64,000 bases of DNA, taken from Myxococcales bacterium (GTDB taxonomy: Bacteria; Myxococcota; Myxococcia; Myxococcales; Myxococcaceae). Positions 8,821-25,626 of this stretch are shown one piece after another. Position 1 is the first letter of the stretch, and each line of letters opens with the position of its first letter. The notes beneath the pieces are model-generated. The model was not told the DNA's origin. It ran no database searches and worked only from the letters and a program-made list of their open reading frames with translations. The DNA lies in the NCBI GenBank assembly GCA_016191815.1, contig JACPVI010000006.1:124001-188000 (forward strand), given 5' to 3'. Both the position numbers and the translations under genes were made by a program.

Positions 8821-9084
8821 ATGTACCTTGGACGGGTGATCGGCACCGTGGTCTGCGAGCGGAAGTGCGAGGGGCTCGAGGGCAAGCGGCTGCTCGTGGT
8901 GCAGCCGTTGGATCACCGCCAACAGCCCACCGGGCCGGCGGAGGTGGCGGTGGACACGGTCTCGGCGCCGCCCAAGGCGCTGGTGTACCTGGTGGGGAGC
9001 CGCGAGGCGGCGCTGGCCTGCGAGCCGTGGTTCGTCCCGGTGGACAGCGCCATCGTCGGCCTGGTGGACCAGGTGGACGCATGA
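8821..9084 (+). CDS. EutN/CcmL microcompartment vertex protein 1
   Basis: The 87-residue product matches the single-domain BMC-P family (EutN, CcmL) along its whole length: an N-terminal LGRVIGTVV strand, a KRLLVVQPLD motif, an AVDTV segment and a closing AIVGLVDQVD strand. Such proteins form pentamers that cap the vertices of bacterial microcompartments. Its stop overlaps the start of a second copy (ATGA). No hexameric BMC-H or BMC-T shell gene is in the window, so this is a satellite pair. The extra Cys residues compared with EutN are notable but unexplained. Confidence 0.9.
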   Translation: MYLGRVIGTVVCERKCEGLEGKRLLVVQPLDHRQQPTGPAEVAVDTVSAPPKALVYLVGSREAALACEPWFVPVDSAIVGLVDQVDA

Positions 9085-9359
9085 CGCTCTGCAAGGTGCT
9101 GGGGACGGTGGTGGCGACGTACAAGCACCCCGCCTTCCACGGAAGGAAGCTGTTGGTGGTCCAGCCGCTCGATCAGCAGCAGCGGCCCAGCGGCACGAGC
9201 TTCATCGCGGTGGACCACACCTCCTGTGCGGGCAAGGGGGACACGGTGCTGGTGATGCGCGAGGGCAACGGGGTGCGCCAGGTACTGGGCGACAAGATGC
9301 TGCCCATCCGCTCGCTGGTGGTGGGCGTGGTCGACCGGGTCGACCTGGCGCGGTGCTGA
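9081..9359 (+). CDS. EutN/CcmL microcompartment vertex protein 2
   Basis: This 92-residue protein is a second BMC-P family member (CKVLGTVVATYKHP, RKLLVVQPLD, SLVVGVVDRVD) made from the same message as the first copy, with a four-base ATGA overlap. Two different vertex proteins suggest hetero-pentamers or alternative vertices of one shell. The next gene downstream starts 59 bases later and belongs to a sulfur operon; whether it is co-transcribed is unclear. Confidence 0.9.
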   Translation: MTLCKVLGTVVATYKHPAFHGRKLLVVQPLDQQQRPSGTSFIAVDHTSCAGKGDTVLVMREGNGVRQVLGDKMLPIRSLVVGVVDRVDLARC

Positions 9360-9417: not shown

Positions 9418-10638
9418 ATGAGCTTCGATCCGAATGGTGCTCGTGCGCGCTTTCCCGGTCTCGTCACCGACTGGGTGCTGTTCGACAACGCGGGGGGGTC
9501 GCAGATCCTCGACTCGGCGATGGACCGCGTCCGCGAGGCGTTCCTCACCTCCCACGTTCAACCCGGCGGAACCTACGCCGCCTCTCAGAAGGTCTCCGAG
9601 CGCGTCGACGCAGCGACCCGCGAGTGGGCCGCATGCTGGAACGCCGCCGACCCGCGCGAGCTCGTCTTCGGCGCGTCGACCACCCAGCTCTTCCAGAACC
9701 TCTCGCGCGCGATCGAGCCCACCATCCAGCCGGGAGACGGCATCATCGTCTGCGAGGTCGACCACGAGGCGAACATCGGCCCCTGGGTGCGGCTGGCCTC
9801 GCGCGGCGCCGAGATCCGCTGGTGGCGACCCAATCGGGAGACGTTCGAGCTGTCGCTCGACGACCTGTCGCGGCTCTTGACGAAGCGGACGCGGCTGGTG
9901 AGCTTCTCCCACGTCTCGAACGTGCTCGGCCACATCAACCCCGCGCGGGAAATCGTCCGCCTCGCCCACGATGCCGGCGCCCAGGTGGTGATCGACGGCG
10001 TCTCCTATGCTCCTCACCGGCGCGTGGACGTGCGCGCCATCGGCGCCGACTTCTACGCGGCCAGCGTGTACAAGGTCTACGGCCCGCACCAGTCGATTCT
10101 CTACGGGCGCCTCGATCGGCTCGAAGCCCTGCCCCCGATCAACCACTACTTCATTCCGGCGGACAAGCTCCCCCACAAGCTGGCCCCGGGCGGTTACAAC
10201 TTCGAGCTGGTCCACGGCGCGGGGGCGGTGCCCCAGTACCTGGCCTCGCTCGGCCCACGCGGCCTCGACGAAGTGGCCGACCACGAGACGGCCCTCGCGG
10301 AGCGGGTCCTCTCCTTCCTCCGAAGCCGCAAGGGCGTGCGGATCATCGGCCTCCCCAAAGGTGCCCCCGACCGCGTGCCCACCATCAGCTTCGTGGTCGA
10401 GGGCCGCGACCCCACGGAGATCGTCCCCAAGGTAGACGCCCACCGCGTCGGGATCAAAGCGGGCGACTTCTACGCCCGGCGGCTCTGCGACGCGCTGGGG
10501 CTGACCAAGCCCGATTCCAGCTCCGTGGGGGCTGGGACATTGGCCCAGGGCGGAGTGGTTCGCGCCTCCCTGGTGCACTACAACACCCTCGCCGAGGCCG
10601 ATCGCCTCTGCGCGGTCCTAGACCAGGTGATCTCTTAA
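9418..10638 (+). CDS. Class V aminotransferase, cysteine desulfurase-like (no catalytic Cys)
   Basis: The 406-residue PLP enzyme has the class V aminotransferase layout: Asp193 in VVIDGVSYAPH for the PLP ring nitrogen and Lys219 in YAASVYKVYGPH for the Schiff base. It most resembles the cysteine-desulfurase-like TIGR01976 group. In SufS/NifS the mobile loop reads RTGHHCA; here the equivalent segment is KAGDFYA, so the persulfide-forming Cys is absent. A lyase or desulfinase-like reaction is therefore possible, and sulfur may not be carried on this protein. It is the first gene of a packed operon with DsrEFH-type proteins (15-base gap to dsrE), suggesting it feeds sulfur to that relay; this is inference. 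Confidence 0.8.
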   Translation: MSFDPNGARARFPGLVTDWVLFDNAGGSQILDSAMDRVREAFLTSHVQPGGTYAASQKVSERVDAATREWAACWNAADPRELVFGASTTQLFQNLSRAIEPTIQPGDGIIVCEVDHEANIGPWVRLASRGAEIRWWRPNRETFELSLDDLSRLLTKRTRLVSFSHVSNVLGHINPAREIVRLAHDAGAQVVIDGVSYAPHRRVDVRAIGADFYAASVYKVYGPHQSILYGRLDRLEALPPINHYFIPADKLPHKLAPGGYNFELVHGAGAVPQYLASLGPRGLDEVADHETALAERVLSFLRSRKGVRIIGLPKGAPDRVPTISFVVEGRDPTEIVPKVDAHRVGIKAGDFYARRLCDALGLTKPDSSSVGAGTLAQGGVVRASLVHYNTLAEADRLCAVLDQVIS

Positions 10639-10653
10639 AGAGGAGGCTGATCC

Positions 10654-11007
10654 ATGGCGAAGCTATGCTTCGTGCTCACCACCGGCCCCTACCAGTTCCA
10701 GGCATGGGACACGGTGTCCCAGCTCGCCTCGGCGGCGCTGGACAAGGGACATGAGGTGTCGTTCTTCATGTACCTCGACGGGGTGTACAACCTGATCAAG
10801 CATCAGAAGTATGATGACCTTCCGGTGTTGCCGCGGGACCGCTTCGCGAGCCTGGCGAAGCGAGGCGCGAAGATCGTCGCCTGCGGCATCTGCACCAACG
10901 CGCGAGGGCTGGAGGGAGGGAAGGAGTACATCGAGGGGGCAAAGGTCGGCGGACTCCCCGACTTCGCCGAGATGGTCGGCGAGGCAGACCGCGTGGTCAC
11001 CTTCTAA
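10654..11007 (+). CDS. DsrE-type sulfur-relay protein
   Basis: The 117-residue protein has the DsrE/TusD fold signature, with an N-terminal FVLTTGPYQFQAWDT strand-loop, an EVSFFMYLDGVY segment and the reactive-Cys region IVACGICTNARG. In the DsrEFH hexamer the DsrE cysteine carries persulfide sulfur in the cytoplasm. The gene is preceded by an AGGAGG site and followed at once by DsrF-like and DsrH-like genes, the dsrE-dsrF-dsrH order. Two Cys (in ACGIC) are candidates for the sulfur carrier. It may pass sulfur to, or accept it from, the lipoate-binding protein encoded downstream. Confidence 0.85.
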   Translation: MAKLCFVLTTGPYQFQAWDTVSQLASAALDKGHEVSFFMYLDGVYNLIKHQKYDDLPVLPRDRFASLAKRGAKIVACGICTNARGLEGGKEYIEGAKVGGLPDFAEMVGEADRVVTF

Positions 11008-11023
11008 CGGCGAGGATGCGCGG

Positions 11024-11374
11024 ATGAGCAAGAAGAGCATTGTGGTGAGCTTCCACCGGGCTCCCTTCGGCACCGCCCACTACCACGAAGGCTTGAGGGT
11101 AGCGGTGGGCCTCGGCGCCGGCACCGACGAGCACTCGGTGAGCGTCGTCTTTCAAGGCGAGGCCGTGTACTACGCTCTCAAGTCCACGGACCGCACCGAC
11201 ACCAAGAAGTACCTCGAGGCCCTCCGGAAAGCCGGGGTCACCCCCTGGGTGGAAGAAGAGGCGCTCGCCGCGCGCGGCCTTCGCGCCGAGGAGCTGAGCG
11301 AGGACATTCGCCCGATCCGCCGAGCGCAGGTCCTCGAGATGCTGAGAGCCGCCGACGTGAACATCGATCTGTGA
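11024..11374 (+). CDS. DsrF-like sulfur-relay subunit
   Basis: The 116-residue product follows the DsrE gene and has a DsrE/F-like layout (IVVSFHRAPFGTAHYHEG, VSVVFQGEAVYYAL, then a DIRPIRRAQVLEMLRAADV helix). It contains no cysteine, so it would be a structural partner rather than a sulfur carrier, as expected for a DsrF position. ATG 11024 is chosen; the frame is open much further upstream, but that part lies antiparallel to real coding of the DsrE gene. The family call rests on position and general fold pattern. Confidence 0.7.
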   Translation: MSKKSIVVSFHRAPFGTAHYHEGLRVAVGLGAGTDEHSVSVVFQGEAVYYALKSTDRTDTKKYLEALRKAGVTPWVEEEALAARGLRAEELSEDIRPIRRAQVLEMLRAADVNIDL

Positions 11375-11381
11375 GCGGAGG

Positions 11382-11645
11382 ATGACGATGGCGCTGTACC
11401 TCATTGACAAGCCGTTCGCCTCGGATGGCCTCGAGCTCGCGGCACTCGACCCCGAAGCGAAGATCGTCTTGATCCAAGACGGCGTCTATCTGGACGCCAG
11501 CCGGTTCCCGGGAAAGGTGTTCGCGGTCAAGTCGGACGCCGAGCGCCGCGGAGTCGCCGGCCGGCTGCCGGCTTCGGTCCGGCGCATCGACCACGCCGAG
11601 CTCGTCGATCTGATCGTCGCCGAGAAGGTCTACAACTTCGCCTGA
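11382..11645 (+). CDS. DsrH/TusB-like sulfur-relay subunit
   Basis: The 87-residue product ends in the pattern typical of DsrH/TusB proteins (DHAELVDLIVAEKVYNFA) and has the short IVLIQDGVYLDA strand-turn. DsrH usually has a sulfur-carrying Cys; none is present here, so only the DsrE-type subunit of this trio keeps cysteine. GGAGG lies just before the ATG. It completes a dsrE-dsrF-dsrH order and is followed 31 bases later by the HdrD-like gene. Confidence 0.65.
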   Translation: MTMALYLIDKPFASDGLELAALDPEAKIVLIQDGVYLDASRFPGKVFAVKSDAERRGVAGRLPASVRRIDHAELVDLIVAEKVYNFA

Positions 11646-11676
11646 CGCGACGCCCGCGTTCGCGGACTCGAGCTCG

Positions 11677-13494
11677 ATGCCGACTGGCGAGCCAACTCCC
11701 GCCGGTACACTCTTCTACGCCCTCGCGGCCGTGGCCCTGGCGGTGGCGGCGGTGGGGGCCGTCCGGCGAATCGCCCAGTGGCGCGGCGGGCCGCCGGCCC
11801 GGTCCAGCGGGAAGCCGCTCCGGCTCCTCGCCGACATCCTGTTCGCTTGGCGGCTGCGGCGAGGCTCGTGGCTCCGCATGGTGCTCCACGGCTGCATCAT
11901 GTACGGCGCGGCCACGCTGTTTTTCGTCGGCAGCCTCGGCGACCTCTTCCTCGGCTTGGGCATCTTTTCCGGGAGCAAGGACACCCCCTGGTTCGCCGCC
12001 GTGAACAACCTCGCCGGGGTGGCCCTGCTGCTCGGCGTGGCGGCGGTGGTGGTCCGCAAGTTGGTCCGGCGGCGAGGCGCACGGTTCACCCGGGAAGAGG
12101 CCGTCCTGTACGGCTTGCTCGCGGCCAGCGCCGTGACCGGGTACGCGACGCAGGCGGCGCGGCAGGCGCAGGCGGGGCAGGCCCTCTACCTCACCGTCTG
12201 GTGGATGCACGCCGCGCTGGCCCTGGCGACCATCGCCGTCGCCCCCTACACCCGGTTGTTCCACGTCGTGGCGACCCCGGCGGGCCTGGTCCGCGGCGGC
12301 CGCGGCACCCTCCTCGCCGTGCTGGACAGCTGCACCCATTGTGGCCTGTGCACCACGGTGTGCGAGGCGCACGGCGCCAGACCGGTCCGGGAGCTTTCCC
12401 CCTGCGCGCGGATGGAGCAGTTCGGCCGCCTGCTCCGGGAAGAGCGAGCCCCCTCCAGGCTCGGGCGGTTGGTGCAGGGCAAGCCGCTGGCGGGAGAGGC
12501 CCTCGCCGCCTTCGAACTGGGGACGTTCGGGTGCACCACCTGCGCCCGCTGCTCGGTGATCTGTCCGGCGGGCATCGACCTGGTGCCGTTGTGGAAGGAG
12601 CTCAGGGCGAGGTGCGCCAGCTTGGGCCGCTACCCGCCCGCCCTCGACCGGGCTCGCGAGGCGATCCGGGAGACCGCCAACGTGCTCAACTTCCCCAACG
12701 TGGACCGCTCGCTCTGGGTCGACCTGATGGACGACCCGCCTCCGGACGGCTACCGAAGGGACCGGGCGGAGGTCCTCTACTACGTCGGCTGCATGTCCAG
12801 CTTCTCGCCCGCGGCGCAATCGATACCGCAGGCGTTCGCGGGGGTTCTCGCGAAGCTGGGGTGCGACTTCAGTATCCTCGGCGACCGCGAGTCCTGCTGC
12901 GGGTTCCCCCTGCTCGTGGCGGGGAGGCCCGAGGAGGCCGAGGCTTTGAGGCAGGCCAACCTCGCCCGGGTGCGACAGATGGGTGCCCGGAGAATCCTCT
13001 TCACCTGCCCGTCCTGCTACCACACCTGGCGCACCCAGTACGCCCCGTCCCTCCCGGGGGTGTCCATGCAGCACGCGACCGAGTTCCTGGCGGAAGCGCT
13101 TCCGCGTTCCGGCCTGAAGCTCGACGGAGCACCCGGGAGGAGAACCGTGACCTACCACGACCCCTGCGACCTCGGCCGCAACGGAGGCGTCTATGCCCCC
13201 CCGCGGGAGGTCCTCTCCATGTTGATGGGGGTGGAGCTTCGCGAGCCCGGCGAGGCACGCGAGACCTCGCGCTGCTGCGGCGGCGGCGGAGATCTGGAGA
13301 TCTCCGACCCGGAGCTGACCCGGGCCATCGCCGGCCGGGCGCTGGAAGCGCTCTCCGCTCCGGGCGCCGAGGTCCTGGTCACCGCCTGCCCGCAGTGCAA
13401 GCGCACCCTCGCACCCGAGGCCACCCGGCGAGGGATGCAGACGATGGACCTGGTGGAGCTGGTGTTGGCTAGCATGCCGAAGAGCCATGGATGA
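11677..13494 (+). CDS. Membrane-anchored HdrD-like heterodisulfide reductase
   Basis: The 605-residue protein fuses three parts. Residues about 1-205 form a NarI/DsrM-like membrane domain of around five spans, with His in MVLHG, WWMHA and RLFHV as haem-ligand candidates. Residues about 215-310 hold two [4Fe-4S] ferredoxin motifs (CTHCGLCTTVC and CTTCARCSVIC). The rest contains two CCG domains (YVGCMSS...CCGFP...CPSCYHTW and HDPCDLGR...CCGGGGD...CPQCKRTL), which in HdrB/HdrD hold the non-cubane cluster that cleaves disulfides. It could oxidise a dithiol such as dihydrolipoate or a persulfide and pass electrons to quinone. It overlaps the lipoate-binding protein gene by eight bases, so LbpA is its likely partner. 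Confidence 0.9.
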   Translation: MPTGEPTPAGTLFYALAAVALAVAAVGAVRRIAQWRGGPPARSSGKPLRLLADILFAWRLRRGSWLRMVLHGCIMYGAATLFFVGSLGDLFLGLGIFSGSKDTPWFAAVNNLAGVALLLGVAAVVVRKLVRRRGARFTREEAVLYGLLAASAVTGYATQAARQAQAGQALYLTVWWMHAALALATIAVAPYTRLFHVVATPAGLVRGGRGTLLAVLDSCTHCGLCTTVCEAHGARPVRELSPCARMEQFGRLLREERAPSRLGRLVQGKPLAGEALAAFELGTFGCTTCARCSVICPAGIDLVPLWKELRARCASLGRYPPALDRAREAIRETANVLNFPNVDRSLWVDLMDDPPPDGYRRDRAEVLYYVGCMSSFSPAAQSIPQAFAGVLAKLGCDFSILGDRESCCGFPLLVAGRPEEAEALRQANLARVRQMGARRILFTCPSCYHTWRTQYAPSLPGVSMQHATEFLAEALPRSGLKLDGAPGRRTVTYHDPCDLGRNGGVYAPPREVLSMLMGVELREPGEARETSRCCGGGGDLEISDPELTRAIAGRALEALSAPGAEVLVTACPQCKRTLAPEATRRGMQTMDLVELVLASMPKSHG

Positions 13495-13954
13495 ACCCCT
13501 CGTGGTGGTGAAGGACGTCCAGCTCCCCGCCGGGGACAGCTACTACTACGACCGGACCGAGCACCTCTGGGCGCGGCTGGAGGGGGAGGGGCGAGTGAGG
13601 GTCGGGCTCAGCGCTTTCGCGCAGAAGGCCGCCGGGGCGATCGCCTACGTCAAGCTCAAGCCGGCGGGCAAGCCCGTGCAGAAGGGGCGCGCCTTCGGCT
13701 CCATCGAGGCCGGCAAGTACATCGGGCCGCTCAAGTCGCCCGCGACTGGCTCGCTGGAGGCGGTCAACGCCGAGGCGTTGGAGAACCCCGGCCTCTTGAA
13801 CACCGACCCGTACGGGCGAGGCTGGCTCGCGGTGATCGAGGCCACAGAGCTCTCGCGCGACCTCGCCGACCTGGTCCACGGCGAGGACGCGATCAGGCGC
13901 TGGATCGAGGAGGAGTACAATCGCTACGTCGCCGAGGGCCTCTTTGCCGAGTGA
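13487..13954 (+). CDS. GcvH-like lipoate-binding protein (LbpA type)
   Basis: The 155-residue protein has the glycine cleavage H fold (YYDRTEHLWAR, VRVGLSAFAQKAAGAIAYV, SPATGSLEAVN). The expected lipoyl lysine is Lys77 in EAGKYIGPLKSP, at the right distance from the P-x-x-G turn. No gcvP or gcvT is nearby. Instead it sits between an HdrD-like reductase and lipoate-assembly genes, the context known for LbpA proteins of the sulfur-oxidising sHdr system, in which bound lipoate carries the sulfur substrate. I therefore favour LbpA over glycine cleavage. It overlaps both neighbours, indicating translational coupling. Confidence 0.85.
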   Translation: MDEPLVVVKDVQLPAGDSYYYDRTEHLWARLEGEGRVRVGLSAFAQKAAGAIAYVKLKPAGKPVQKGRAFGSIEAGKYIGPLKSPATGSLEAVNAEALENPGLLNTDPYGRGWLAVIEATELSRDLADLVHGEDAIRRWIEEEYNRYVAEGLFAE

Positions 13955-14867
13955 GCCTGGGCCGGCCCGCCCGGTCGTCTTCTCCGCCCCGGGGATCAAG
14001 CGCTACGCCGCGCGGGACTTCACCCCGTGCAACCCGGAGAGCTTCCGGCCGGTGAGCCTCACTGGAGCGCGCTGTGCCCTGAGCTGCGCCCACTGCGAGG
14101 GCAAGCTGCTCCGGGCGATGGTGCCTGCCCGCCCGAGCCTGCTCGACGCGTGCGCCAGGCTAGCCCGCGCGGGGACGAGGGGAGTGCTGATCACCGGCGG
14201 ATGCGACCGAAAGGGGCGGGTGCCGCTGGCCGGCCTTGGCGAGGAGCTGCGGAGGGTGCGTGATTCCCTGGGCCTGTCGGTGGCGGTGCACACCGGCCTC
14301 TTGGACCGGGCGGCGGCGGAGGAGCTCGCCCAGGCGGGCGTGGAGCGGGCGATGCTCGATCTGATCGGCGCTCGCGAGACCGCGCGGGAGGTGTACCACC
14401 TCGAGGCTGGCCCGGAGGACTACGAAGCGTCGCTGGCGGCGCTGGTGGATTCCGGCGTCCCCACGCTTCCCCACATCGTGCTCGGGCTGCACTACGGAGC
14501 GCTGAAGGGCGAACGCGCCGCGCTGGAGATGGTTCGCCGGCACCGCGTGGCCGGGCTGGTGCTGGTGGTGCTCACCCCCCTGCCTGGAACTCCAATGGCC
14601 TCCGTCGCCCCTCCGCCCATCGGCGAGGTAGAGGAGTTCTTCCACCTCGCCAGGCGCTCGCTGCCCGAGCTGCCGGTCTGGCTCGGCTGCGCCCGTCCGT
14701 GCGGGCCGGCGCGGCGGGCGATCGATCGGGCCGCCTTGCGGGCCGGGCTGGACGGCATCGCCTTCCCCGCCGAGGGAATCGTGGCCCGGGCCAGGGCGTC
14801 CGGACGGGAGGTCGTGCTAAGCGATGCCTGCTGCGGCTTCGTGGGGGCGCCGGGGACGGACCGATGA
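13944..14867 (+). CDS. Radical SAM protein, LipS1/LipS2-type lipoyl synthase
   Basis: This 307-residue radical SAM enzyme has its CxxxCxxC cluster motif at Cys44/48/51 (GARCALSCAHC) and a GGCDRKG segment in the SAM-binding region. Further Cys occur near the C-terminus (CARPCG and DACCGF) and could hold the auxiliary, sulfur-donating cluster a lipoyl synthase needs. The start is a TTG inside the end of lbpA. Position between lbpA and the lipoate ligase matches the split LipS1/LipS2 pathway, in which two radical SAM proteins each insert a sulfur into octanoate. Which of the two this is cannot be told from sequence reading alone. Confidence 0.75.
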   Translation: MPSEPGPARPVVFSAPGIKRYAARDFTPCNPESFRPVSLTGARCALSCAHCEGKLLRAMVPARPSLLDACARLARAGTRGVLITGGCDRKGRVPLAGLGEELRRVRDSLGLSVAVHTGLLDRAAAEELAQAGVERAMLDLIGARETAREVYHLEAGPEDYEASLAALVDSGVPTLPHIVLGLHYGALKGERAALEMVRRHRVAGLVLVVLTPLPGTPMASVAPPPIGEVEEFFHLARRSLPELPVWLGCARPCGPARRAIDRAALRAGLDGIAFPAEGIVARARASGREVVLSDACCGFVGAPGTDR

Positions 14868-16042
14868 GGCGGCACGAGAAGATTCGCTACCTGGAGGACG
14901 ACGGAGTCTCCGCGGAGGCAGGGCTGGCCGAGGATGAGCTCCTGCTCGAACAGCAGGGGCTGGCGCAGCCCCCCTCGCCCACCCTTCGCCTCTACACTTA
15001 CCGCTCGCACTGCGCGCTGGTCGGGAGGTTCCAGGATCTCGACGCCGAGGTGGACGTCGCCCAGTGCGAGCGCCTGGGGGTGGCGGTCAACCGCCGGCCG
15101 ACCGGAGGCGGCGCCATCCTGATGGGTGCCGACCAGCTGGGGGTGGCCCTGGTCGGACCGGCCGCGAAAGAGCCTTCCCGGGCGATCATGGAGATGGCCG
15201 CCCGCCCGCTCCTCGCCGGCCTTGCCTCGCTGGGTGTCCACGCCCAGCTCACCGGGAAGAACGACCTGTCGGTGGGCGCGCGGAAGCTCGCCGGTCTGGG
15301 AATCTGCCGGAACGAGCAGGGGGCCTTCCTCTTCCACGCCAGCCTTCTGCTGGACCTGGACATCGAGCTGATGCTCAGGGTGCTCAGGGTGCCGATCGAA
15401 AAAGCAGGAGGGAAGGGCGTGCAGTTCGTGGAGGGCAGGCTGACCACGGTGCGCCGGGAGCTGGCGCGGCGGGTGGTGATGGCCGAGCTGCGCGCGGCGC
15501 TGCGAGCCGGAGTGGAGCGCGTACTCGGGGCCCAGCTGGAGCCGGCGGCATCAAGTGAGGCCGAGCGTGCCGAGGTGGCGCGGCTGGTCGCGGGCAAGTA
15601 CCTCACGCCGCACTGGGTGCGCGAGCGCTCCGGAGGTGGCGACTCCCTGGCCATCGGCTACGCCCGGGCCCCGGGGGGGCTCATCCGGGCCCAGGTGAAG
15701 GTCGCCGGAGGCGCGCTCCAGGCCGCGTACCTGAGCGCGGATTTCGTGGACGCGGCTCACTCGCTGCTCCCGGAGATCGAGCGGCGACTTCGCTGGTGCT
15801 CGCTCGCCGCAGATTCTCTGGCCAAGGCGGTGCGCGAGGCCTGGGAGCAGGCCTCGACGCTGCCGTGCGGTGTGGAGCCGGAGCACGTGGTCCGCGCGCT
15901 CTTGCGGGCGGTGGAGGCGGCGGCGCGCCACGAGGAGGGGAGGTACGCCTGCTTCGTGGGAAGGTTCCCCGATGGCGGCTCCGCTCCCACCGCCGCGGCC
16001 GCGGGACCCGCAGGTCGCCTCGGAGGCGGCGATGAACGCTGA
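14864..16042 (+). CDS. Lipoate/octanoate-protein ligase, sLpl(AB) type
   Basis: The 392-residue protein is an LplA-family ligase: it has the RRPTGGGAILMG substrate motif near residue 75 and GKNDLSVGARKLAGLG with the conserved lysine. The region after about residue 245 (GKYLTPHWVRE) is the LplB-like C-terminal domain, so both parts are on one chain. It would attach octanoate or lipoate through an acyl-AMP to Lys77 of the LbpA-like protein. Both ends overlap radical SAM genes (ATGA upstream, 11 bases downstream), consistent with a dedicated lipoate-assembly cassette. Confidence 0.85.
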   Translation: MRRHEKIRYLEDDGVSAEAGLAEDELLLEQQGLAQPPSPTLRLYTYRSHCALVGRFQDLDAEVDVAQCERLGVAVNRRPTGGGAILMGADQLGVALVGPAAKEPSRAIMEMAARPLLAGLASLGVHAQLTGKNDLSVGARKLAGLGICRNEQGAFLFHASLLLDLDIELMLRVLRVPIEKAGGKGVQFVEGRLTTVRRELARRVVMAELRAALRAGVERVLGAQLEPAASSEAERAEVARLVAGKYLTPHWVRERSGGGDSLAIGYARAPGGLIRAQVKVAGGALQAAYLSADFVDAAHSLLPEIERRLRWCSLAADSLAKAVREAWEQASTLPCGVEPEHVVRALLRAVEAAARHEEGRYACFVGRFPDGGSAPTAAAAGPAGRLGGGDER

Positions 16043-17132
16043 GGGCGGCCCGGCGCGGGTGAGGCTCAGCCTGGCGGCGGCCCTGGCGCTCGGGCTGCGA
16101 TCGGGGCGCACCTACCGGGGGGCGCGCACATCGTGCGTCAACCTGCTGTTGGACTACCCGGTCCCCTGCTTCTCCCGCTGTGCCTACTGCGGCCTCTCCC
16201 GCCACCGCCCGCTAGCGCCCGGAGGCCCGGAGAGCTTCATCCGCGTGGAGTGGCCGGCCTTCCCCACCGAGCTCGTGCGCGCCCGCATCGCCGAGCGCGA
16301 GCCCGCGGTGAAGCGAGTCTGCGTTTCGATGGTGGAGAACCCCCGCGCCTTCGAAGACGCCGAGCGCCTCTGCCGCAGCATCCGAACGTCCACCGGGGTG
16401 CCCATCTCGGTCCTGATTCACCCTCGAGGGCTCGGAGCTCCGGAGCTCCTGCGGCTCCGGCAGGCGGGCGCGGACATGATCGGCATCGGCCTCGACGCCG
16501 CCTCCCCCCGGCTGTTCGCGCGGGTGCGGCCCGGCCTTGAATGGGACACCTACTGGCGCACCGTCTTGGCGGCGCGGTCGGTGTTCGGTCCGGGAAAGGT
16601 GAATTGCCACGTCGTCGTGGGTCTGGGCGAGTCCGACCAAGACCTCCTCAGGCTCGCAAGCTCGCTCCGGGAGCGACAGGTGTCCACGTACCTTTTCTGC
16701 TTCTACCCTGAGCCCGGAACGCGGCTGGCCGGCCGGCGGCGCCCGCCCCTGTCGCGCTGGCGAAGACTCCAGGTCGCCACTTTCCTTTTGGGTCGAGGAC
16801 TGCCTTTGGAGGCCCTCCGTTTCCGCGCCGGGCGCCTCGCCGAGATCGCCATCGACGCTCGCGCGTTGGCGGAGGCCATCCGTTCCGGAGCGCCGTTCCG
16901 CACGCACGGTTGTCCCGACGCCCAGGGGCAGGTGGCGTGCACGCGGCCATTCGGGAGCTACCGCCCCGGCGAGCCCTTCCGCGACTTCCCATTTCCCCTC
17001 GAGGCGCAGGACGTGGCGAGGGCGGAGCGTGAAGCCCGCGCGCGTTGGTTCGAGCGGCCGCCGCGGGCGAGCTTCGGGCGCGGAAGAGCGCTGGTTCGTC
17101 AGCCCGACGGCTGTTATGGCTGCGCTCCATGA
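16032..17132 (+). CDS. Second radical SAM protein, LipS1/LipS2-type
   Basis: The 366-residue enzyme has CxxxCxxC at Cys46/50/53 (CFSRCAYCG) plus Cys35 just before it. Its core resembles lipoyl/biotin-synthase-like radical SAM proteins (ISVLIHPRGLG, GIGLDAASPRLF, NCHVVVGLGE). The C-terminus ends in a CxxC pair (GCYGC) that may help ligate an auxiliary cluster. It is the second radical SAM gene around the lipoate ligase, which fits the LipS1+LipS2 pair. The next gene starts in an ATGA overlap. Confidence 0.75.
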   Translation: MNAEGGPARVRLSLAAALALGLRSGRTYRGARTSCVNLLLDYPVPCFSRCAYCGLSRHRPLAPGGPESFIRVEWPAFPTELVRARIAEREPAVKRVCVSMVENPRAFEDAERLCRSIRTSTGVPISVLIHPRGLGAPELLRLRQAGADMIGIGLDAASPRLFARVRPGLEWDTYWRTVLAARSVFGPGKVNCHVVVGLGESDQDLLRLASSLRERQVSTYLFCFYPEPGTRLAGRRRPPLSRWRRLQVATFLLGRGLPLEALRFRAGRLAEIAIDARALAEAIRSGAPFRTHGCPDAQGQVACTRPFGSYRPGEPFRDFPFPLEAQDVARAEREARARWFERPPRASFGRGRALVRQPDGCYGCAP

Positions 17133-18013
17133 GGGTGCTGGGCTTGGCGCTGCCGCTCTTGGCGCTGGGGTGCCGCGCGGGCGCGCCCGGTGCGGCCCCG
17201 GCGGTGCCCGAGGTGTTGCGCGTCCGGCCCTACCAGCTTCACGTGCCCGCTGGTTACAGCCCGCGGCGGGCTGCCCCGCTCCTGGTGTCGCTGCATGGCT
17301 ACGGCGATCATGGCCGCGGCCTGGTCGATCACCTGGGGCTGGTGGCCCTCGCCGAGGAACGGACCCTCCTCCTCGCCTACCCGGACGGCACGCCCGATTC
17401 CGCCGGGCGCCGTTTCTGGAATGCCGGAGACGCCTGCTGCAATTTCGATCGCCTCGCGGTCGACGACGTCTCCTACCTCGACGCCCTCATCGACGACGTC
17501 AAGGCCCGGTTCTCGGTCGATGCGGGCCGGGTTTTCCTCCTAGGCCTCTCGAACGGAGGCTTCATGGCCCACCGCTACGCCTGCGTGCGAGGGAAGCGCG
17601 TGGCCGGGTTGATCAGCCTGGCGGGGGCGGCCCCTCCCCGCGCCGACTGCGCGCCCCAGGAAGCGGTGGCGGTGCTCCAGATCCACTCGGACGTCGACCC
17701 GGTCGTGCGCTACCAGGGAGGGGTGCTGGGAGGGGGGCTGCCTGCGGGGGCGCCGTACCCGTCGGCCCGAGAGTCGGTGTCCGCATGGGCGAGAGCCGAC
17801 GGCTGCACCGGAGAGCCTGAGCGTTCGCCGCACCCGCTGGACATCGATTCCGCCGTCCCCGGCGCGGAAACGATCGTAGAAAAATGGCCGGGGTGCGCAC
17901 GGGGAGCGGCGGAGCTATGGACCGCGCGCGGCGGCGGTCACGTGATCCGTCCCACCCAAGCATTCCTGCCCGCGCTTTCTGGCTTTCTCGAGGCGCGCGC
18001 TCGGCCGCCCTGA
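17129..18013 (+). CDS. LpqC/feruloyl-esterase-like secreted lipoprotein hydrolase
   Basis: This 294-residue alpha/beta hydrolase has a lipobox (LALGC) at its N-terminus, an oxyanion strand LLVSLHGYGDHG, a nucleophile elbow GLSNGG and a late GGGH histidine. It matches the LpqC / polyhydroxybutyrate depolymerase / feruloyl esterase group. The substrate is unknown. It overlaps the stop of the radical SAM gene, so it is co-transcribed with the lipoate cassette, although an extracytoplasmic esterase has no obvious role in sulfur transfer. Confidence 0.8.
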   Translation: MRVLGLALPLLALGCRAGAPGAAPAVPEVLRVRPYQLHVPAGYSPRRAAPLLVSLHGYGDHGRGLVDHLGLVALAEERTLLLAYPDGTPDSAGRRFWNAGDACCNFDRLAVDDVSYLDALIDDVKARFSVDAGRVFLLGLSNGGFMAHRYACVRGKRVAGLISLAGAAPPRADCAPQEAVAVLQIHSDVDPVVRYQGGVLGGGLPAGAPYPSARESVSAWARADGCTGEPERSPHPLDIDSAVPGAETIVEKWPGCARGAAELWTARGGGHVIRPTQAFLPALSGFLEARARPP

Positions 18014-18163: not shown

Positions 18164-19918
18164 ATGCAAACGACGGAAAACAAGGGCCGTCATCTTGTGG
18201 TCTGCGGCAAGGGCGGCATTGGCAAGACGACCGTTGCCACCAACCTCGGGGAGGCCCTCGTCGCGCTGGACCAGCGCGTCGCGATCACCGGTTGTTCGCC
18301 GAAGTCGAGCCTGATCGACGTCTACGACATGGGCGATCGCATGGCGCCCATCCTCGATCTCAAGCGCCGGGAAGGGATCACGGCTCAGAACATCGGCAAG
18401 GCGGTGCAGCGGACCTCCACTGGGATCCTGCTGTGCGAGACAGGCGGCCCCGAGCCCGGGGTCGGGTGTGCGGGGGTGGGACTGCCCATCGCCTTCCAGG
18501 AGCTCGAGGAGCACAAGCACCAGCTCGACGGGTTCGACGCGGTCAACTACGCCTTCTACGACCTGCTCGGCGACGTGGTCTGCGGAGGCTTCTTCACCCC
18601 AATGAGGGGAGGCGGCCGCGAGGCCCTGGTGGTCATCAGCGGCGAGCTGATGGCCGTCTACGCCGGGAACAACATCTTGAGGGCGGTGAAGGCGCTCGGC
18701 GACGACGTCCGCGTGGCGGGGTACGTGGTGAACATGCGAGGGGTGCCGCACGAGGAGGAGGTGGTGCGTGCCTTTTCCGAGCGGACCCAGGTCCCCATCC
18801 TGGCCTCCATCCCCCGCGAGAGCGCCACGTTCAAGCACGCCGAGCGCGAGCGGAAGACCGTACTCAGCGCGCTCCCCGAGTCGCCGATCGCGGCGACCTT
18901 CAGGGAACTGGCCCGCAGGCTTCACTCCTCGGCCTCCGAGGTAGTCCCCAAGCCGATCGACCGCTACGACGAGCTCTACGACCTGTACATGGGCGTCCAG
19001 CGGGATCGAATCGAGATCGGGGACGATGGCCGCGCGCAATACCAGCGCAGCCTTCCCAAGAACCCGGTGTCCCGGGAGTTGCCCAAGCGCATCTCCATCT
19101 ACGGGACCGGTGGGATCGGCAAGTCGACCACCAGCTCCAACGTGAGCGCCGCGCTCGTCCTGATGGGAGAGAAGGTCTTCCAGATCGGTTGCGACCCCAA
19201 GCACGATTCGATCGCGAACCTGTGCGGACAACTGAAGCCCACCGTGCTGGACGAGGTGCAGAAGCTGGGCGGAACCCGGGGCATCAGCCGGGAGCTCCTG
19301 AAGAACCTCATCTTCCCCGGGGTAGGGTTCGAGGACCGCCTCTTCGGTACCGAGTGCGGCGGCCCCGCGCCCGGCAAGGGGTGCGCCGGCAAGGGGGTGG
19401 ACCTGGTGGTCAAGCTGCTCGAGGAGCACCGGCTCCCCCAGGAGTACCGCTTCACCTTCATCGTCTACGACGTGCTGGGGGACACCGTCTGCGGAGGATT
19501 CGCCCGGCCGCTGAAGTTCACTCCGCAGGCCTACATCGTCACCAGCGGCGAGGTGGCGACCATGATGCAGGCGATGAAGATCGCCCAGAGCATCAAGGCC
19601 GCGTCCGATCACGGCGTGGACGTGGGGATCGGCGGCATCATCGACAACATGCGGGGCATCCCCAAAGAGGCGGAGATCGTGGAAGCGGTCTTCGGCGCGG
19701 TGGGGCTACCGGTGGTCCACCACGTCCCGCGGTCCGAGTGGGTCCAGAAAGCCGAGAACGCGCGGGCCACGGTGGTCCAGGCCTTTCCCGCTTCGGATCA
19801 GGCCCGGCAGTACCTGGACCTGGCGCGGAAGCTCCAAGAGAAAACCTCGCGCCATTCGCTGACTCGAGAGGTCCTCTCGACCAGGGAGATCCTGGCGATC
19901 GTCAACCGATACGCCTGA
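18164..19918 (+). CDS. Fused double NifH-like Fe protein
   Basis: One 584-residue chain contains two complete NifH/BchL-like domains. Domain 1 (about 8-260) has Walker A GKGGIGKT at 15-22 and the two cluster cysteines, Cys102 (GVGCAGVG) and Cys140 (DVVCGGF). Domain 2 (about 308-560) has Walker A GTGGIGKS at 314-321, Cys407 (GKGCAGKG) and Cys443 (DTVCGGF). Usual NifH is about 290 residues and works as a homodimer bridged by one [4Fe-4S], so this chain could fold as a covalent dimer. The halves differ: the switch I motif is GCSPKSS in the first and GCDPKHD in the second, so the catalytic Asp pair is lost only in domain 1. ATG 18164 follows a GGCGGGAG ribosome site; a TTG at 18077 is less likely. 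It should reduce the NifDK-like pair encoded convergently. Confidence 0.93.
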   Translation: MQTTENKGRHLVVCGKGGIGKTTVATNLGEALVALDQRVAITGCSPKSSLIDVYDMGDRMAPILDLKRREGITAQNIGKAVQRTSTGILLCETGGPEPGVGCAGVGLPIAFQELEEHKHQLDGFDAVNYAFYDLLGDVVCGGFFTPMRGGGREALVVISGELMAVYAGNNILRAVKALGDDVRVAGYVVNMRGVPHEEEVVRAFSERTQVPILASIPRESATFKHAERERKTVLSALPESPIAATFRELARRLHSSASEVVPKPIDRYDELYDLYMGVQRDRIEIGDDGRAQYQRSLPKNPVSRELPKRISIYGTGGIGKSTTSSNVSAALVLMGEKVFQIGCDPKHDSIANLCGQLKPTVLDEVQKLGGTRGISRELLKNLIFPGVGFEDRLFGTECGGPAPGKGCAGKGVDLVVKLLEEHRLPQEYRFTFIVYDVLGDTVCGGFARPLKFTPQAYIVTSGEVATMMQAMKIAQSIKAASDHGVDVGIGGIIDNMRGIPKEAEIVEAVFGAVGLPVVHHVPRSEWVQKAENARATVVQAFPASDQARQYLDLARKLQEKTSRHSLTREVLSTREILAIVNRYA

Positions 19919-19923
19919 AGTCC

Positions 19924-20181
19924 CTACGTCTTCGAGATCGTGAACTTCTGCCCGTCGCACGCCACCCGGTGGTCCGTATCGCAGGTGTTGACGTCGCCGA
20001 TGTTGGAGATCCGCCGCATCAGGTCGACCTCGGGCTTGCTGAACGAGTAGTCGCCCCGGTTGATCTTCTCGATGATCGCGGCGCAGGCGGCCTCGTCGAT
20101 CTTGTCAACGTTGAACAGGCGGTCCGCCACGAGCTGCTTGAACGCCTCGAGCGTGCGGGGGAAATTGGGCTGGTATTCCAT
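19924..20181 (-). CDS. Small companion of the NifDK-like proteins
   Basis: An 85-residue, soluble, mostly helical protein is encoded last in the NifD-K operon, with an AGAGAGGA ribosome site before the ATG. It has three Cys (33, 67, 75); the last two lie in NTCDTDHRVAC. I do not recognise the family. Its size and place recall the small third subunits (AnfG/VnfG) of alternative nitrogenases, but I see no sequence resemblance that proves this. It could be a delta-like subunit, a cluster chaperone or a small electron carrier partner. Confidence 0.8.
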   Translation of the reverse strand: MEYQPNFPRTLEAFKQLVADRLFNVDKIDEAACAAIIEKINRGDYSFSKPEVDLMRRISNIGDVNTCDTDHRVACDGQKFTISKT

Positions 20182-20206
20182 GCTCGTCCTCTCTGTCCGG
20201 CCGGGG

Positions 20207-21466
20207 TTAACAGACGACTGAGTTCAGCGCGTCCTCGACGACGTTCAGCATTCCTCGATAGCCGAAATAGGGCCTCGCCCCCAAACTGATCCGCCTGCTC
20301 ATCGGATTGGCGATCGGGATGGCCTTGCACTTCGTCCTTCCCTCCAGAAGCTCGTCCACCCAGTCGGCGCCGAGCAGCACTCGCACCTCTGGCCTGGAGC
20401 AATGAGCGGTCAGCGAAGGGAGATCGCCCTCCGGCAGCACCTCGACGCCGCGGACCTCTTCCGGCGCGGCTTCGCCAACCCAGGTCGGGAAGATCCAGCC
20501 CCGCTTGAACTGAAGCTCCTCCATCATCGTCCGCGCCCACTGGGACGCCCGGTGGCGGTCGTCGCAGACGACGAAGGCCGACTCGCGGATGGTGTTGGCC
20601 CGGACGTGGTAGCGCTCCTCGCGAAGCCCCGGCCTCACGATGAAGAAGAACTCCGCCTCCTCCTCGTAGTGGACCTTTGAAACGGCCTCCGCCCCGATGC
20701 CGAGGAACCCGGCGACCTCGTCGAGCCAGAGCTTGGTCCCCCAGACTCCGATGGGCAGCTTCTTCGGTACGAAGAAGGGGATGTCGTGCGTGTCACTCAG
20801 GTACTGGGCGGCCTTCTTCCCGACGTCCGGATTCATCAGCAGCGTCCGGGAGGCCCGCGTCATGTCGGCGATGTCCGAAAGCTGCGACCGGCACGGGGCG
20901 ATGGAGACCGTGTACCCGAACTTGCCGAGGATCCTGGCGACCTCCGCCGCGTCCGCCCTCCACTGGGGATTGATCCCCACCTCGGGGATCAGGTTCAGCC
21001 GCTTGGGGTCACGCTCGGTCTTCTTCCGGCAGAGCCGTTGCACCAGCCGAAACACCGTTTCGTTGATCCCGTAGCGGTAGTCCCCCTTGAAGCCGGTCTC
21101 CACGTAGATGATGGGGAAATCCGGCGAGATGCGGCTCTCGATGAGCGACTCCAGGTCCTCGGAGATGAGCGCGGTCGCGTCTCCAAGGAAGAAGAACAGC
21201 GGCCCCGGGACGTTGCACCCGCGCACCATCGAGAGCAGCTGGGGCGTGACCGTGGCCATCCCATTCATCATCATGTCGGCCTGGGTGACCCGGAAGTGGT
21301 ACATGTCGTAGAGGTGGCGTTGGTTGTTGGTCGCCTCTACGACTTGGGACGAGCAGCCCCGCGGACCCCAGATGAGGATGTTCGGCTCCTCGAATTCGCT
21401 GGCGACCAGCGACGCGCCGTACAGCGAGCCCCTCTTGTAGAGCGCTCCGCCGATCGTGGTCAGCAT
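20207..21466 (-). CDS. NifK-like nitrogenase superfamily component 1 subunit
   Basis: The 419-residue protein is recognisable as NifK-like from LIWGPRGCSS (residues 31-40), FFFLGDATALISEDLESLI, and a C-terminal GYRGMLNVVEDALNSVV like the end of NifK. It is about 100 residues shorter than NifK, mainly at the N-terminus; the ATG is the first start after an in-frame stop. By eye alignment the three NifK P-cluster cysteines (70, 95, 153) correspond to Ser14, Cys38 and Asp96, so a normal eight-iron P-cluster is unlikely. A four-iron cluster shared with the NifD-like chain, as in BchNB where an Asp is a ligand, is more plausible. It lies 15 bases after the NifD-like gene. Confidence 0.9.
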   Translation of the reverse strand: MLTTIGGALYKRGSLYGASLVASEFEEPNILIWGPRGCSSQVVEATNNQRHLYDMYHFRVTQADMMMNGMATVTPQLLSMVRGCNVPGPLFFFLGDATALISEDLESLIESRISPDFPIIYVETGFKGDYRYGINETVFRLVQRLCRKKTERDPKRLNLIPEVGINPQWRADAAEVARILGKFGYTVSIAPCRSQLSDIADMTRASRTLLMNPDVGKKAAQYLSDTHDIPFFVPKKLPIGVWGTKLWLDEVAGFLGIGAEAVSKVHYEEEAEFFFIVRPGLREERYHVRANTIRESAFVVCDDRHRASQWARTMMEELQFKRGWIFPTWVGEAAPEEVRGVEVLPEGDLPSLTAHCSRPEVRVLLGADWVDELLEGRTKCKAIPIANPMSRRISLGARPYFGYRGMLNVVEDALNSVVC

Positions 21467-21481
21467 CGCCGAAGTCCGCGG

Positions 21482-22915
21482 TCAGTCCCGGACCAGGCCG
21501 GGAATCTTGTCGTTCCAATCGACATTCTCGTACTTCCTCTCCACGTAGCGGCTGAAGACCGAATGGTTCTGGCTGGCTTCGCGGTTGTACACCCCGCGGA
21601 TCTTCTCAATCAGGTTCCTCAGGCCGGTCAGGCCCACCGCGTGCTCCCGGAAGAAGTCCACGTCCACGGTGGGGAAGTTCCCCAGCCAGAACTTCTTGGG
21701 CATGAAGAACAGCGGCCTCTCCTCGTAGGGCATCTCGCCCTCCAGCTGCACCCAGCGCTTGGAGTTGCCCCGGATGATGCACCTGGGCTCGTTTCCCTCC
21801 TTGAGCATCTCGATGATGGTTTCCCGGGTGTTCTTGATCGTGTGGTAGGTGAAGCCGGCGAGGATGGGCTCCTGGCCGAGGTCGCGCGCCAGGTTGGTGA
21901 GCGCGAGCGCCTTCTCTCCCGGGTGCCAGATGTAGCACTCGTTGAGCTTCGACTTCTTGGCGATGAACGCGCGGAGCTCCTGGACCTCGGAGGTCAAGGC
22001 GGCGACCTCGGGAGAGCCGGAGAGCTTGTCCTCGGCGCCGACCAGCTCGGTCACCCGCTTCACCCAGCGGAGCGTGGCCGACAAGCCCAACGGGTAGCTG
22101 GCGGTGGAGTACTTCTGGCCGAAGCACTCGCTCAGGTGCTTCATCACCGCCTTGCCATAGGTGTAGCAGAGCGAGACGTTGGCCTCCGCCTGGGGAATCT
22201 TCAGCAGCTCCTCGTAGGTGGTCCCGATCCGCACGATCGTGTTGATCTCGATCCCGTTGATCGCGAGCAGCCGCTGGATCTCCTGGACGTCCGCGTTCTC
22301 CGACAGACGCCCGTTCACCCGCCGGAGGAAGAGGTTGACCGACCTGGGTCGCCGCTGGGTGGCGGTGCTCTTGGCCTTGACGTGGTCCACCAGCGCCTTG
22401 AGGGCGAAGTCAGTTCCCTCCCGGAAACCCTTGCAGCTGATGCCTCCGATCTTGATCGGGAGCACATCCGCTCCGATCCGGCCCTTGAGGCGCCTGGCGA
22501 CCGATGGTACGTCCTCGTTGATCATGTCGCTGACGCAAGTGGTGAGGACGGGGATCAGCTTCGGGTGGAACTCCGCGTCGGCGAGCCGCACCAGGTTTTC
22601 CAGCTTCTCGATGGCGCCGAAGACCACATCGGTCGCCTCCATCTCGGTGGCCGCGAGCGGCGGCCTGAACTTCTCTTGCAGCCGGCTGGCCACCCGGGTG
22701 GCGAAATAGGAGCTCACGCACCCGACCGGCCCGTGCACGATCGGGAGGACCCCGGGGAACATGGTGCAGGTGTCGTAGGCCCCGATGAAGGAGCAGAGAT
22801 TCTCGACATCCGTCTTGTCGGTCCCGTCCACGAACCCGAAGTCAACCCAGGTCAGAAGCTCGCTCAGTTTCCAGATCGACGGTTTCGAGTCGTACCAAGA
22901 CATGGCTGGCGGCAC
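21482..22915 (-). CDS. NifD-like nitrogenase superfamily component 1 subunit
   Basis: The 477-residue protein aligns with NifD. The three P-cluster ligands appear kept: Cys41 (for Cys62), Cys66 in HGPVGC (Cys88) and Cys127 in TTCVSDMINED (Cys154). The FeMo-cofactor cysteine also appears kept: Cys250 in NVSLCYTYGKAVMKHL matches Cys275 in LVHCYRSMNYISRHM. In contrast the cofactor His442 region (GPYHGFDG) reads EHAVGLTG with Val at the His position, and the active-site His195 segment is replaced. It thus probably holds an L-cluster-like cofactor with altered ligation and a non-N2 substrate. The GTG start at 22915 has AAGG at a good distance; an ATG four codons in is possible. First gene of the nifD-nifK-small operon. 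Confidence 0.93.
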   Translation of the reverse strand: MPPAMSWYDSKPSIWKLSELLTWVDFGFVDGTDKTDVENLCSFIGAYDTCTMFPGVLPIVHGPVGCVSSYFATRVASRLQEKFRPPLAATEMEATDVVFGAIEKLENLVRLADAEFHPKLIPVLTTCVSDMINEDVPSVARRLKGRIGADVLPIKIGGISCKGFREGTDFALKALVDHVKAKSTATQRRPRSVNLFLRRVNGRLSENADVQEIQRLLAINGIEINTIVRIGTTYEELLKIPQAEANVSLCYTYGKAVMKHLSECFGQKYSTASYPLGLSATLRWVKRVTELVGAEDKLSGSPEVAALTSEVQELRAFIAKKSKLNECYIWHPGEKALALTNLARDLGQEPILAGFTYHTIKNTRETIIEMLKEGNEPRCIIRGNSKRWVQLEGEMPYEERPLFFMPKKFWLGNFPTVDVDFFREHAVGLTGLRNLIEKIRGVYNREASQNHSVFSRYVERKYENVDWNDKIPGLVRD

Positions 22916-23000
22916 CTAACCTTGACGTGGACCCCGTTCCCGACAGTCGTCGTCGCATTGCGGGCTGGGAACCTGCCCGTAACCAGAGATGAGTCCCGAA

Positions 23001-23029
23001 ATTTTTGGCGATCCCGCCGGCACTGTCAA
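23001..23029 (-). promoter_or_regulatory. Sigma-70-like promoter for the NifD-like operon
   Basis: On the minus strand a perfect -35 box TTGACA (23024-23029) is followed after exactly 17 bases by AAAAAT (23001-23006; four of six match TATAAT). It lies in a locally AT-rich patch of the 238-base gap between the divergent NifD-like and arsA genes and points at the NifD-like gene, giving a leader of roughly 80 bases. No sigma-54 (GG-N10-GC) element was noticed there, unlike typical nif operons. Confidence 0.6.
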
Positions 23030-23153
23030 TCTCGACGGAGGCGCAGAGCGCCGCAACCGCCGCGCCGAGGCCCAGGTAAGATGAGGCGGGTAGGCTTGCC
23101 AGCGACGGCGGCGGTGTGGGCATGGTACCTTCCGCTTTCTCCCGTGGGCACCC

Positions 23154-24941: not shown

Positions 24942-24950
24942 GGAGGGACC

Positions 24951-25565
24951 ATGCCAAGAATGCAGGTGTTCGATCCGCCCATGTGCTGCTCCACCGGGGT
25001 CTGCGGCCCGTCCGTCGATCCCACGCTCGTGCGCTTCGCCGCGGATCTCGACTGGTTGAAGAACAGCGGCGTCGAGGTGGAGCGGTACAACTTGGGCCAG
25101 CAGCCGGCAGCCTTCGTGGAGAGCGTCATCGTCCGCAATGCGCTCGAGGCGGAGGGCAATGGCTGCCTGCCGATCGTGGTCGTCGAGGGCAAGATCGTCT
25201 CCCGCGGCAACTACCCGCTGCGCGACGCCCTGGCGGGCTACGTCGGCCTGCAGAGCGAGCCCTCCCTGTTCACCGAGCAGGTGAAGGAGCTGGTGGCCAT
25301 CGGCGCGGCGATCGCCGCCGGTTGCGATCCCTGCTTCAAGTTCCACTACGACAAGGCGCGGAAGGCGGGCGTCTCCAAGGAGGACATGGTCAAGGCGGTG
25401 GCCCTCGGCAAGGAGGTTCGCGAGGCGCCGGGAAGGACGGTGGTGCAGACTGCCGAGCGGTACCTGGCCGGGGGGGCGGCCCCGACCGACATCCCCTCGT
25501 CGTGCTCGCTCCAGCCCGCATCGGGCGAGGCCGCGGCCTCCGAGAAGAAGTCGAAGTGCTGCTGA
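24951..25565 (+). CDS. arsD: ArsD metallochaperone fused to an AhpD/CMD-like domain
   Basis: The 204-residue protein begins with a full ArsD domain whose metalloid cysteines match R773 ArsD exactly (Cys12, Cys13, Cys18 in MCCSTGVCG). It continues from about residue 105 with a carboxymuconolactone decarboxylase/AhpD-like domain carrying a redox CxxC (AAGCDPCFKFHYDKA). It ends in a vicinal KCC. ArsD normally is about 110-120 residues and hands As(III) to ArsA. The fused thiol-redox domain could reduce the chaperone or its cargo. AAGGAGG precedes the ATG; the gene is coupled to arsA. Confidence 0.9.
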   Translation: MPRMQVFDPPMCCSTGVCGPSVDPTLVRFAADLDWLKNSGVEVERYNLGQQPAAFVESVIVRNALEAEGNGCLPIVVVEGKIVSRGNYPLRDALAGYVGLQSEPSLFTEQVKELVAIGAAIAAGCDPCFKFHYDKARKAGVSKEDMVKAVALGKEVREAPGRTVVQTAERYLAGGAAPTDIPSSCSLQPASGEAAASEKKSKCC

Positions 25566-25598
25566 GCTTGCCAGGCGCGCCGCCTGCGAGACCTGGCT

Positions 25599-25626
25599 GA
25601 GCCGTCGCCGGCTCGGCGGCGGGCTC
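25599..25626. terminator. Possible bidirectional hairpin between arsD and nifB
   Basis: The short gap between the convergent arsD and NifB genes contains a GC-rich imperfect inverted repeat (GAGCCGTCGCCG ... CGGCGGCGGGCTC) with a short loop. It ends within the last codons of the NifB gene. There is no T-run on either side, so intrinsic termination is only possible, not shown. Confidence 0.3.

Follow-up and report, generated by a model that had tools for sequence, protein, structure and literature searches.

In a 64,000-nucleotide stretch of the Myxococcales bacterium contig JACPVI010000006.1 (the window), nine genes at 9418-17132 form an operon that combines a DsrEFH trio, an HdrD-like membrane Fe-S protein and the lipoyl carrier LbpA with genes for the carrier's lipoylation. 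We consider it somewhat more probable than an even chance (about 0.55) that the operon, which would have reached the host by horizontal transfer, is a trimmed version of an LbpA module that is shared among phyla and separate from the sHdr pathway, and that it works as follows. DsrEFH would carry sulfane sulfur on Cys77 of DsrE and transfer it to LbpA at the reduced dithiol of its lipoyl group, which would be made in place by LipS1, LipS2 and Lpl. The HdrD-like protein, with two predicted noncubane CCG-type clusters, two 4Fe-4S clusters and a probable heme b, would re-oxidise dihydrolipoyl or persulfidated LbpA and hand the electrons to menaquinone. LbpA would thus correspond to DsrC, the partner of DsrMK in the Dsr pathway. 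We infer that sulfur passes to LbpA, that the electron partner is quinone and that the overall direction is oxidative.

The operon's genes are all open frames on the + strand, most of them overlapping or nearly abutting, with spacings of +15, +16, +7, +31, -8, -11, -4 and -11 bp in the order given here, together with the evidence for each assignment (HMM, hidden Markov model; PLP, pyridoxal phosphate; SAM, S-adenosylmethionine):

9418-10638, + strand: PLP fold-type I enzyme, TIGR01976/UstD-FGM3-like, first gene of the operon (HMM, structure match)
10654-11007, + strand: DsrE, TusD-like (HMM, alignment)
11024-11374, + strand: DsrF, TusC-like (HMM)
11382-11645, + strand: DsrH, TusB-like (HMM)
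11677-13494, + strand: HdrD-like membrane Fe-S protein (HMM, ligand alignment, tree)
13487-13954, + strand: LbpA, GcvH-like lipoyl carrier (HMM, motif, tree)
13944-14867, + strand: LipS1 radical SAM lipoyl synthase, TTG start (HMM, ligand residues)
14864-16042, + strand: sLpl(AB)-type lipoate/octanoate-protein ligase (HMM, tree)
16032-17132, + strand: LipS2 radical SAM lipoyl synthase (HMM, ligand residues)

A compact sulfur and lipoate operon had been proposed in a preliminary description of the window, and the nine open genes, their tight spacing, the HMM assignments and the recurrence of the set elsewhere show that it is real. As the same genes recur in at least 12 loci of other phyla, their association goes beyond chance. 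What can be read from the sequences is the gene content, the conserved ligands, the dedicated lipoylation genes, the recurrence across phyla and a host in which no sHdr or Dsr genes were found. The operon's base composition is that of its surroundings, and its codon usage fits the host, the GC content at third codon positions (GC3) being 0.85-0.94 as in the rest of the window; for this reason contamination is an unlikely origin, with assembly error as a residual possibility.

The GcvH-like protein belongs to the GCV_H Pfam family and is 33% identical to the genome's own GcvH. Its lipoyl lysine, K77, lies in the motif EAGKYIGP and not in ESTKAVSE, and the AlphaFold model places K77 in a hairpin of a confident lipoyl domain (predicted local distance difference test score, pLDDT, of 93). 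In the tree it joins the LbpA of the module loci with support of 88, inside a set supported at 98, and stands apart from the host GcvH, in agreement with its earlier identification as LbpA. A second GCV_H protein is encoded on contig C75 directly after GcvT. Since a separate GcvH stands beside GcvT in the same genome, LbpA is evidently not a displaced GcvH of glycine cleavage, and the idea that it serves an orphan glycine cleavage system, with a GcvT lacking its own H protein, was rejected.

The three genes that follow appear to be a dedicated LbpA lipoylation set, although both radical SAM proteins score below the NCBI cut-offs. LipS1 reaches 223.4 bits with NCBIfam NF053742, by far its best HMM, just under the cut-off of 230, and LipS2 reaches 196 bits vs a cut-off of 270. 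All the ligands mapped in LipS1 of Thermococcus kodakarensis (C27/31/34, H159, C230, C276 and C277; PMC9585515) are kept at matching offsets as C44/48/51, H177, C249, C296 and C297. In LipS2 the reference residues of the same species are Cx3Cx2C, C85, H178, C276 and C279; the window protein has C46/50/53, C97 and H193, and its last pair, C294/C303, has a longer spacer than Cx2C. By HMMs and ligand residues, neither radical SAM protein falls outside LipS1 and LipS2, and the operon's own lipoate assembly, as previously suggested, is supported. The catalytic LplA-B_cat domain of the ligase is clear, its C-terminal LplB match is weak (22.9 bits), and in the tree it clusters with cassette-linked Lpl. 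Outside the operon, the genome has the canonical LipA and two other genes of the LplA/LipB family.

Pfam HMMs find two CCG domains and Fer4_8 in the HdrD-like protein, which also has hydrophobic N-terminal helices. We required two CCG sites of the form Cx31-38CCx..CxxC plus two 4Fe-4S sites; all the ligands are present in the alignment and invariant across the module, and His196, which adjoins the membrane helices, is conserved as well. The modelled fold resembles EtfD of M. smegmatis (best solved match 9ojn) and HdrB, so that the HdrD-like reductase of the preliminary description has its Fe-S ligands in full and a quinone-linked protein as its closest solved relative. The tree places it with the HdrD of the module (Shimodaira-Hasegawa-like approximate likelihood ratio test, SH-aLRT, 91-92). 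Like EtfD, or EMO (the menaquinone oxidoreductase of the electron-transfer flavoprotein, ETF), it joins a membrane domain to an HdrD-like domain, but the operon has no Etf genes and the genome has its own separate paralogue in the EMO/EtfD branch (L005). We rejected a lineage-specific EMO/EtfD because of this paralogue and because the tree splits the two proteins. Elsewhere in the module, the HdrD-like proteins of L075 (2-1687) and L076 (7482-9608) have a CxxCH (heme c-type) insert inside the membrane domain, and at the Nitrospirota locus L077 (3606-6232) the protein is, by eye, a soluble chain of 383 amino acids (aa) beside a GlcD-like FAD oxidase.

The earlier assignment of a DsrE/F/H-like trio holds. 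The three adjacent homologous subunits belong to the Pfam families DsrE, DsrE and DsrH, and their best NCBIfam matches, TusD, TusC and TusB, are weak and below cut-off. The active-cysteine position of DsrEFH/TusBCD is kept in DsrE: Cys77, which lies in an invariant CGIC motif, is the candidate active cysteine and corresponds in the alignment to the active Cys78 of Allochromatium vinosum DsrE. The window DsrE is 54-59% identical to the DsrE of the module loci. The neighbouring PLP protein had been described as desulfurase-like but is not a canonical desulfurase. The catalytic-cysteine motif of true cysteine desulfurases is RxGxHC; the C-terminal loop of the PLP protein reads RVGIKAGD and lacks the catalytic Cys of SufS and IscS. 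The protein matches Aminotran_5 and also TIGR01976, the latter at 324 bits and so below the cut-off of 352, and its nearest solved relatives are FGM3 and UstD, which are fungal natural-product enzymes. Its gene occurs in none of the 12 module loci from other phyla and is not part of the conserved module. Speculatively, the enzyme may be a local source of sulfur or sulfinate for the operon.

In the host assembly (6.77 Mb, 98.8% complete) we found no sHdrA at E<=1e-30, the controls from Acidithiobacillus and HR28 scoring 782 and 278 bits, and neither DsrA nor DsrC in searches of the genome. Besides the HdrD-like protein of the operon, two other proteins with CCG domains were found, their open frames about 700 codons long, and none of the three is an HdrB; the suggested genome search for sHdr genes came out as the preliminary description expected. 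Among 195 genomes of Myxococcota, LipS1 was present in one, that of the host. Within the phylum the module-type DsrE is likewise confined to this genome, other DsrE matches being at most 34% identical, and the other best HdrD-like matches reach at most 36% identity. This distribution, with the host-like base composition, is most simply read as horizontal acquisition and later amelioration. In a genome from another family of the phylum, LbpA and HdrD are neighbours at the end of a contig (L173; G192:C52, 659-3277), with neither LipS1 nor the module DsrE.

To place the operon among its relatives, we searched 85,000 species genomes of GTDB for the motif around the LbpA lysine, [IV]E[AS]GK[YWF][VIA]GP. 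The scan alignment carried synthetic rows derived from the window LbpA, with only the motif scored as conserved, and real LbpA was used for confirmation. At least 580 relatives were confirmed, of which the best 80 were kept. At least 12 loci (L071-L080, L083 and L084) have the same module, DsrEFH-TusA-LbpA-LipS1-Lpl-LipS2-HdrD, and belong to Desulfobacterota, Nitrospirota, Desantisbacteria, Actinomycetota and one unassigned bacterium; sHdr-type loci were under-sampled in the scan. The operon is therefore not a single case. TusA and LbpA are present in all 12 loci and DsrEFH in 11, and LipS1, Lpl, a LipT-like gene, LipS2 and the HdrD-like gene in most; where one of these is missing, the contig or the stretch usually ends there. 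Half of the loci (6/12) have an HdrB-like gene, several an HdrC-like gene and one has generic HdrA-like genes upstream, but none of the 12 has HdrB1 or HdrC1. In whole-genome searches no module genome had true sHdrA, generic HdrA-like proteins scoring at most 163 bits vs 278-782 in the sHdr controls. A dsrA match was found in 11 of the 12 genomes (one a partial gene, below cut-off) and DsrC in 9.

Compared with these loci, the window operon reads as a reduced version of the module that lacks TusA, LipT and HdrBC. It also reads as a mosaic, because DsrEFH, HdrD and LbpA match the module while LipS1, Lpl and LipS2 group with the cassettes of Etf-type sHdr clusters (support 96-100) and would come from another lineage. 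A literature search, with most subscription journals outside its coverage, found no description of a DsrEFH-LbpA-HdrD module.

A single-protein LipS1 scan of genome contigs gave 69 pattern matches with no relative among them, a trial scan of viral contigs gave no module match, and tblastn against plasmids returned no LipS1, LbpA matches that were mostly GcvH, and HdrD matches that, among those listed, were about 31% identical or less. On the Acidithiobacillus ferrooxidans plasmid NZ_CP040512, a GcvH-like protein with the LbpA-like motif LESGKW (L070, 13983-14429) is encoded among hemerythrin, DUF2249, Hcp and NnrS genes and an Hdr-related gene, a neighbourhood that suggests LbpA use in nitrosative stress; a CCG protein near a GcvH-like gene on this plasmid was rejected, not being homologous over its length. 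In Odin- and Baldrarchaeota (L081, L082 and L088), LbpA of the same broad clade lies beside HdrA- and HdrB-like genes.

Among the other LbpA loci, some are sHdr clusters lacking Etf, as in Acidithiobacillus and Hydrogenobaculum among others, some are Etf-type clusters from Actinobacteria and Chloroflexi, and the rest fall outside both groups. The operon shares with the sHdr-LbpA pathway of Hyphomicrobium, Acidithiobacillus and Sulfolobaceae (PMC6067878, PMC10332631) an LbpA with a lipoyl lysine, LipS1, LipS2 and sLpl(AB), and nearby sulfurtransferases of the DsrE/TusA type. It differs in lacking the HdrC1-HdrB1-HdrA-hyp core and in having an HdrD-like membrane protein and a DsrEFH trio in place of single DsrE proteins. 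The Group III (Etf-type) clusters (PMC6067878) have a membrane HdrD-like protein of about 700 aa beside LbpA, within 700 bp in 16 of 28 cases, and are the closest relatives of the window's LipS1, Lpl and LipS2. However, they carry EtfAB and, over the stretches retrieved, roughly half of the loci also have HdrA, and their HdrD-like proteins fall in the other branch, with EMO/EtfD-like proteins that include the host paralogue. The suggested survey of HdrD-LbpA adjacency did find the pair in other loci, but since the Etf-type clusters show it too, adjacency alone is not diagnostic. The type II DsrEFH, or YTD, cluster (PMC13293266, PMC12998232) similarly has DsrEFH and TusA in Dsr-bearing Desulfobacterota and Nitrospirota, whereas its described partners are YeeE/YedE and DsrC; the account covering these two phyla mentions neither lipoate nor glycine-cleavage H proteins (PMC13293266). 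In logic the operon resembles the DsrMK/DsrC relay, in which DsrEFH feeds a carrier protein with a dithiol and a membrane enzyme of the HdrD type comes next, except that its carrier is lipoyl-LbpA, not DsrC, and that the membrane and HdrD parts are in one chain. The preliminary description saw the operon as sHdr replaced by a single quinone-reducing HdrD-like enzyme. No sHdr was found and LbpA and the HdrD-like enzyme are kept, but the replacement is not so simple, because the fuller module has TusA, often has an HdrB/HdrC-like pair and coexists with Dsr.

The potential of menaquinone is higher than that of lipoamide. Because the latter is low (-0.29 V; PMC6067878), electron transfer from dihydrolipoyl-LbpA to quinone would run downhill, and we lean towards the oxidative direction. 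Several observations weigh against the mechanism as we propose it. The operon has no TusA, the two TusA-family genes of the genome lying elsewhere; the module otherwise accompanies DsrAB and may need Dsr, absent in the myxobacterium, for sulfite; and no known sulfite-forming enzyme or system was identified in this host. The membrane domain of the HdrD-like model has low confidence, the heme and quinone sites there being only predicted, and the placement of the protein in the tree sits on a long branch. Electrons might instead flow from menaquinol over the HdrD-like protein to the lipoyl disulfide of LbpA, and dihydrolipoyl-LbpA would reduce persulfides delivered by DsrEFH to sulfide, in sulfur or polysulfide reduction or in persulfide detoxification. 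Authentic HdrD reduces disulfides using electrons of a membrane cytochrome b, dsrA and DsrC occur in most of the genomes with the module, which come from lineages rich in sulfate reducers, and sulfide would be the simpler end product here. Yet transfer from quinol to lipoyl-LbpA would be uphill at the potential cited, and all characterised LbpA systems are oxidative. We regard this alternative as less likely than the oxidative direction but as a serious rival, because the myxobacterium has no known sulfite-forming system, and either end product may apply.

The other explanations fare much worse. It is very improbable that the operon serves the adjacent nitrogenase-like locus (18164-27139), rather than respiration, as a source of sulfur or of low-potential electrons for the cofactor made there. 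The loci adjoin on one contig, sulfide is required by NifB and the operon begins with a UstD-like PLP enzyme, but a quinone-coupled membrane HdrD has the wrong potential for a nitrogenase donor, and flanks of up to 10 kb around the module loci in other phyla, with partly annotated open reading frames (ORFs), showed no recognisable nitrogenase-like gene. Slighter still is the chance that the neighbours are incidental and that LbpA is simply another GcvH or relays lipoyl groups for glycine cleavage or 2-oxoacid dehydrogenases. Its Pfam family, its identity to the host GcvH and its lipoyl fold would fit; the GcvH already adjacent to GcvT, the different lysine motif, the same DsrEFH and HdrD neighbours in other phyla and the restriction of LipS1 to this one myxococcotal genome would not. 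We give least credence to a degenerate import left after the loss of TusA, HdrBC and LipT, genes common in its relatives, as none of the nine frames is broken, the catalytic residues that were tested are in place, codon usage is host-like, and a lipoylation cassette from another lineage in the same operon points to selection.

The flanks contain further genes. Immediately upstream (8821-9359) lie a microcompartment vertex gene of the CcmL/EutN family (HMM) and, by eye, a second look-alike that follows it directly. A predicted secreted esterase resembling polyhydroxyalkanoate depolymerases (17129-18013, + strand; HMM) overlaps LipS2 by 4 bp and is probably co-transcribed with the operon, a functional tie to which is unsupported. 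The nitrogenase-like locus includes NifE-like and BchB-like proteins on the opposite strand, a 584-aa tandem of two NifH/CfbC-like domains (nearest solved structure the nitrogenase iron protein 9fmg_D) and a full NifB (616 bits vs a cut-off of 344). An ArsA pump ATPase with an ArsD-AhpD domain fusion after it lies at 23154-25565. Two adjoining metallo-beta-lactamase-like ComEC-type proteins, noted by eye from the ORF list, are encoded at 34906-37376 on the - strand.

The role of lipoate in sulfur metabolism has so far been tied to the sHdr complex, while over half of the bacteria with LipS1 and LipS2 are without sHdr (PMC10332631) and the role of their carriers is open. The module would be one concrete answer for these carriers. 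We put at even odds that it is a sulfur system of its own, the third to be based on lipoate and not dependent on sHdr. In this system lipoyl-LbpA would act as a DsrC-like sulfur carrier between DsrEFH and an HdrD-like enzyme linked to quinone; it would occur in those Desulfobacterota, Nitrospirota, Desantisbacteria and Actinomycetota that have Dsr and would have passed in reduced form to a Dsr-less myxobacterium. It predicts a role for lipoate in Dsr-bearing sulfur metabolism, and the compact myxobacterial version, with no Dsr or sHdr background, would allow a clean test of whether a single HdrD-like enzyme is enough together with DsrEFH and LbpA.

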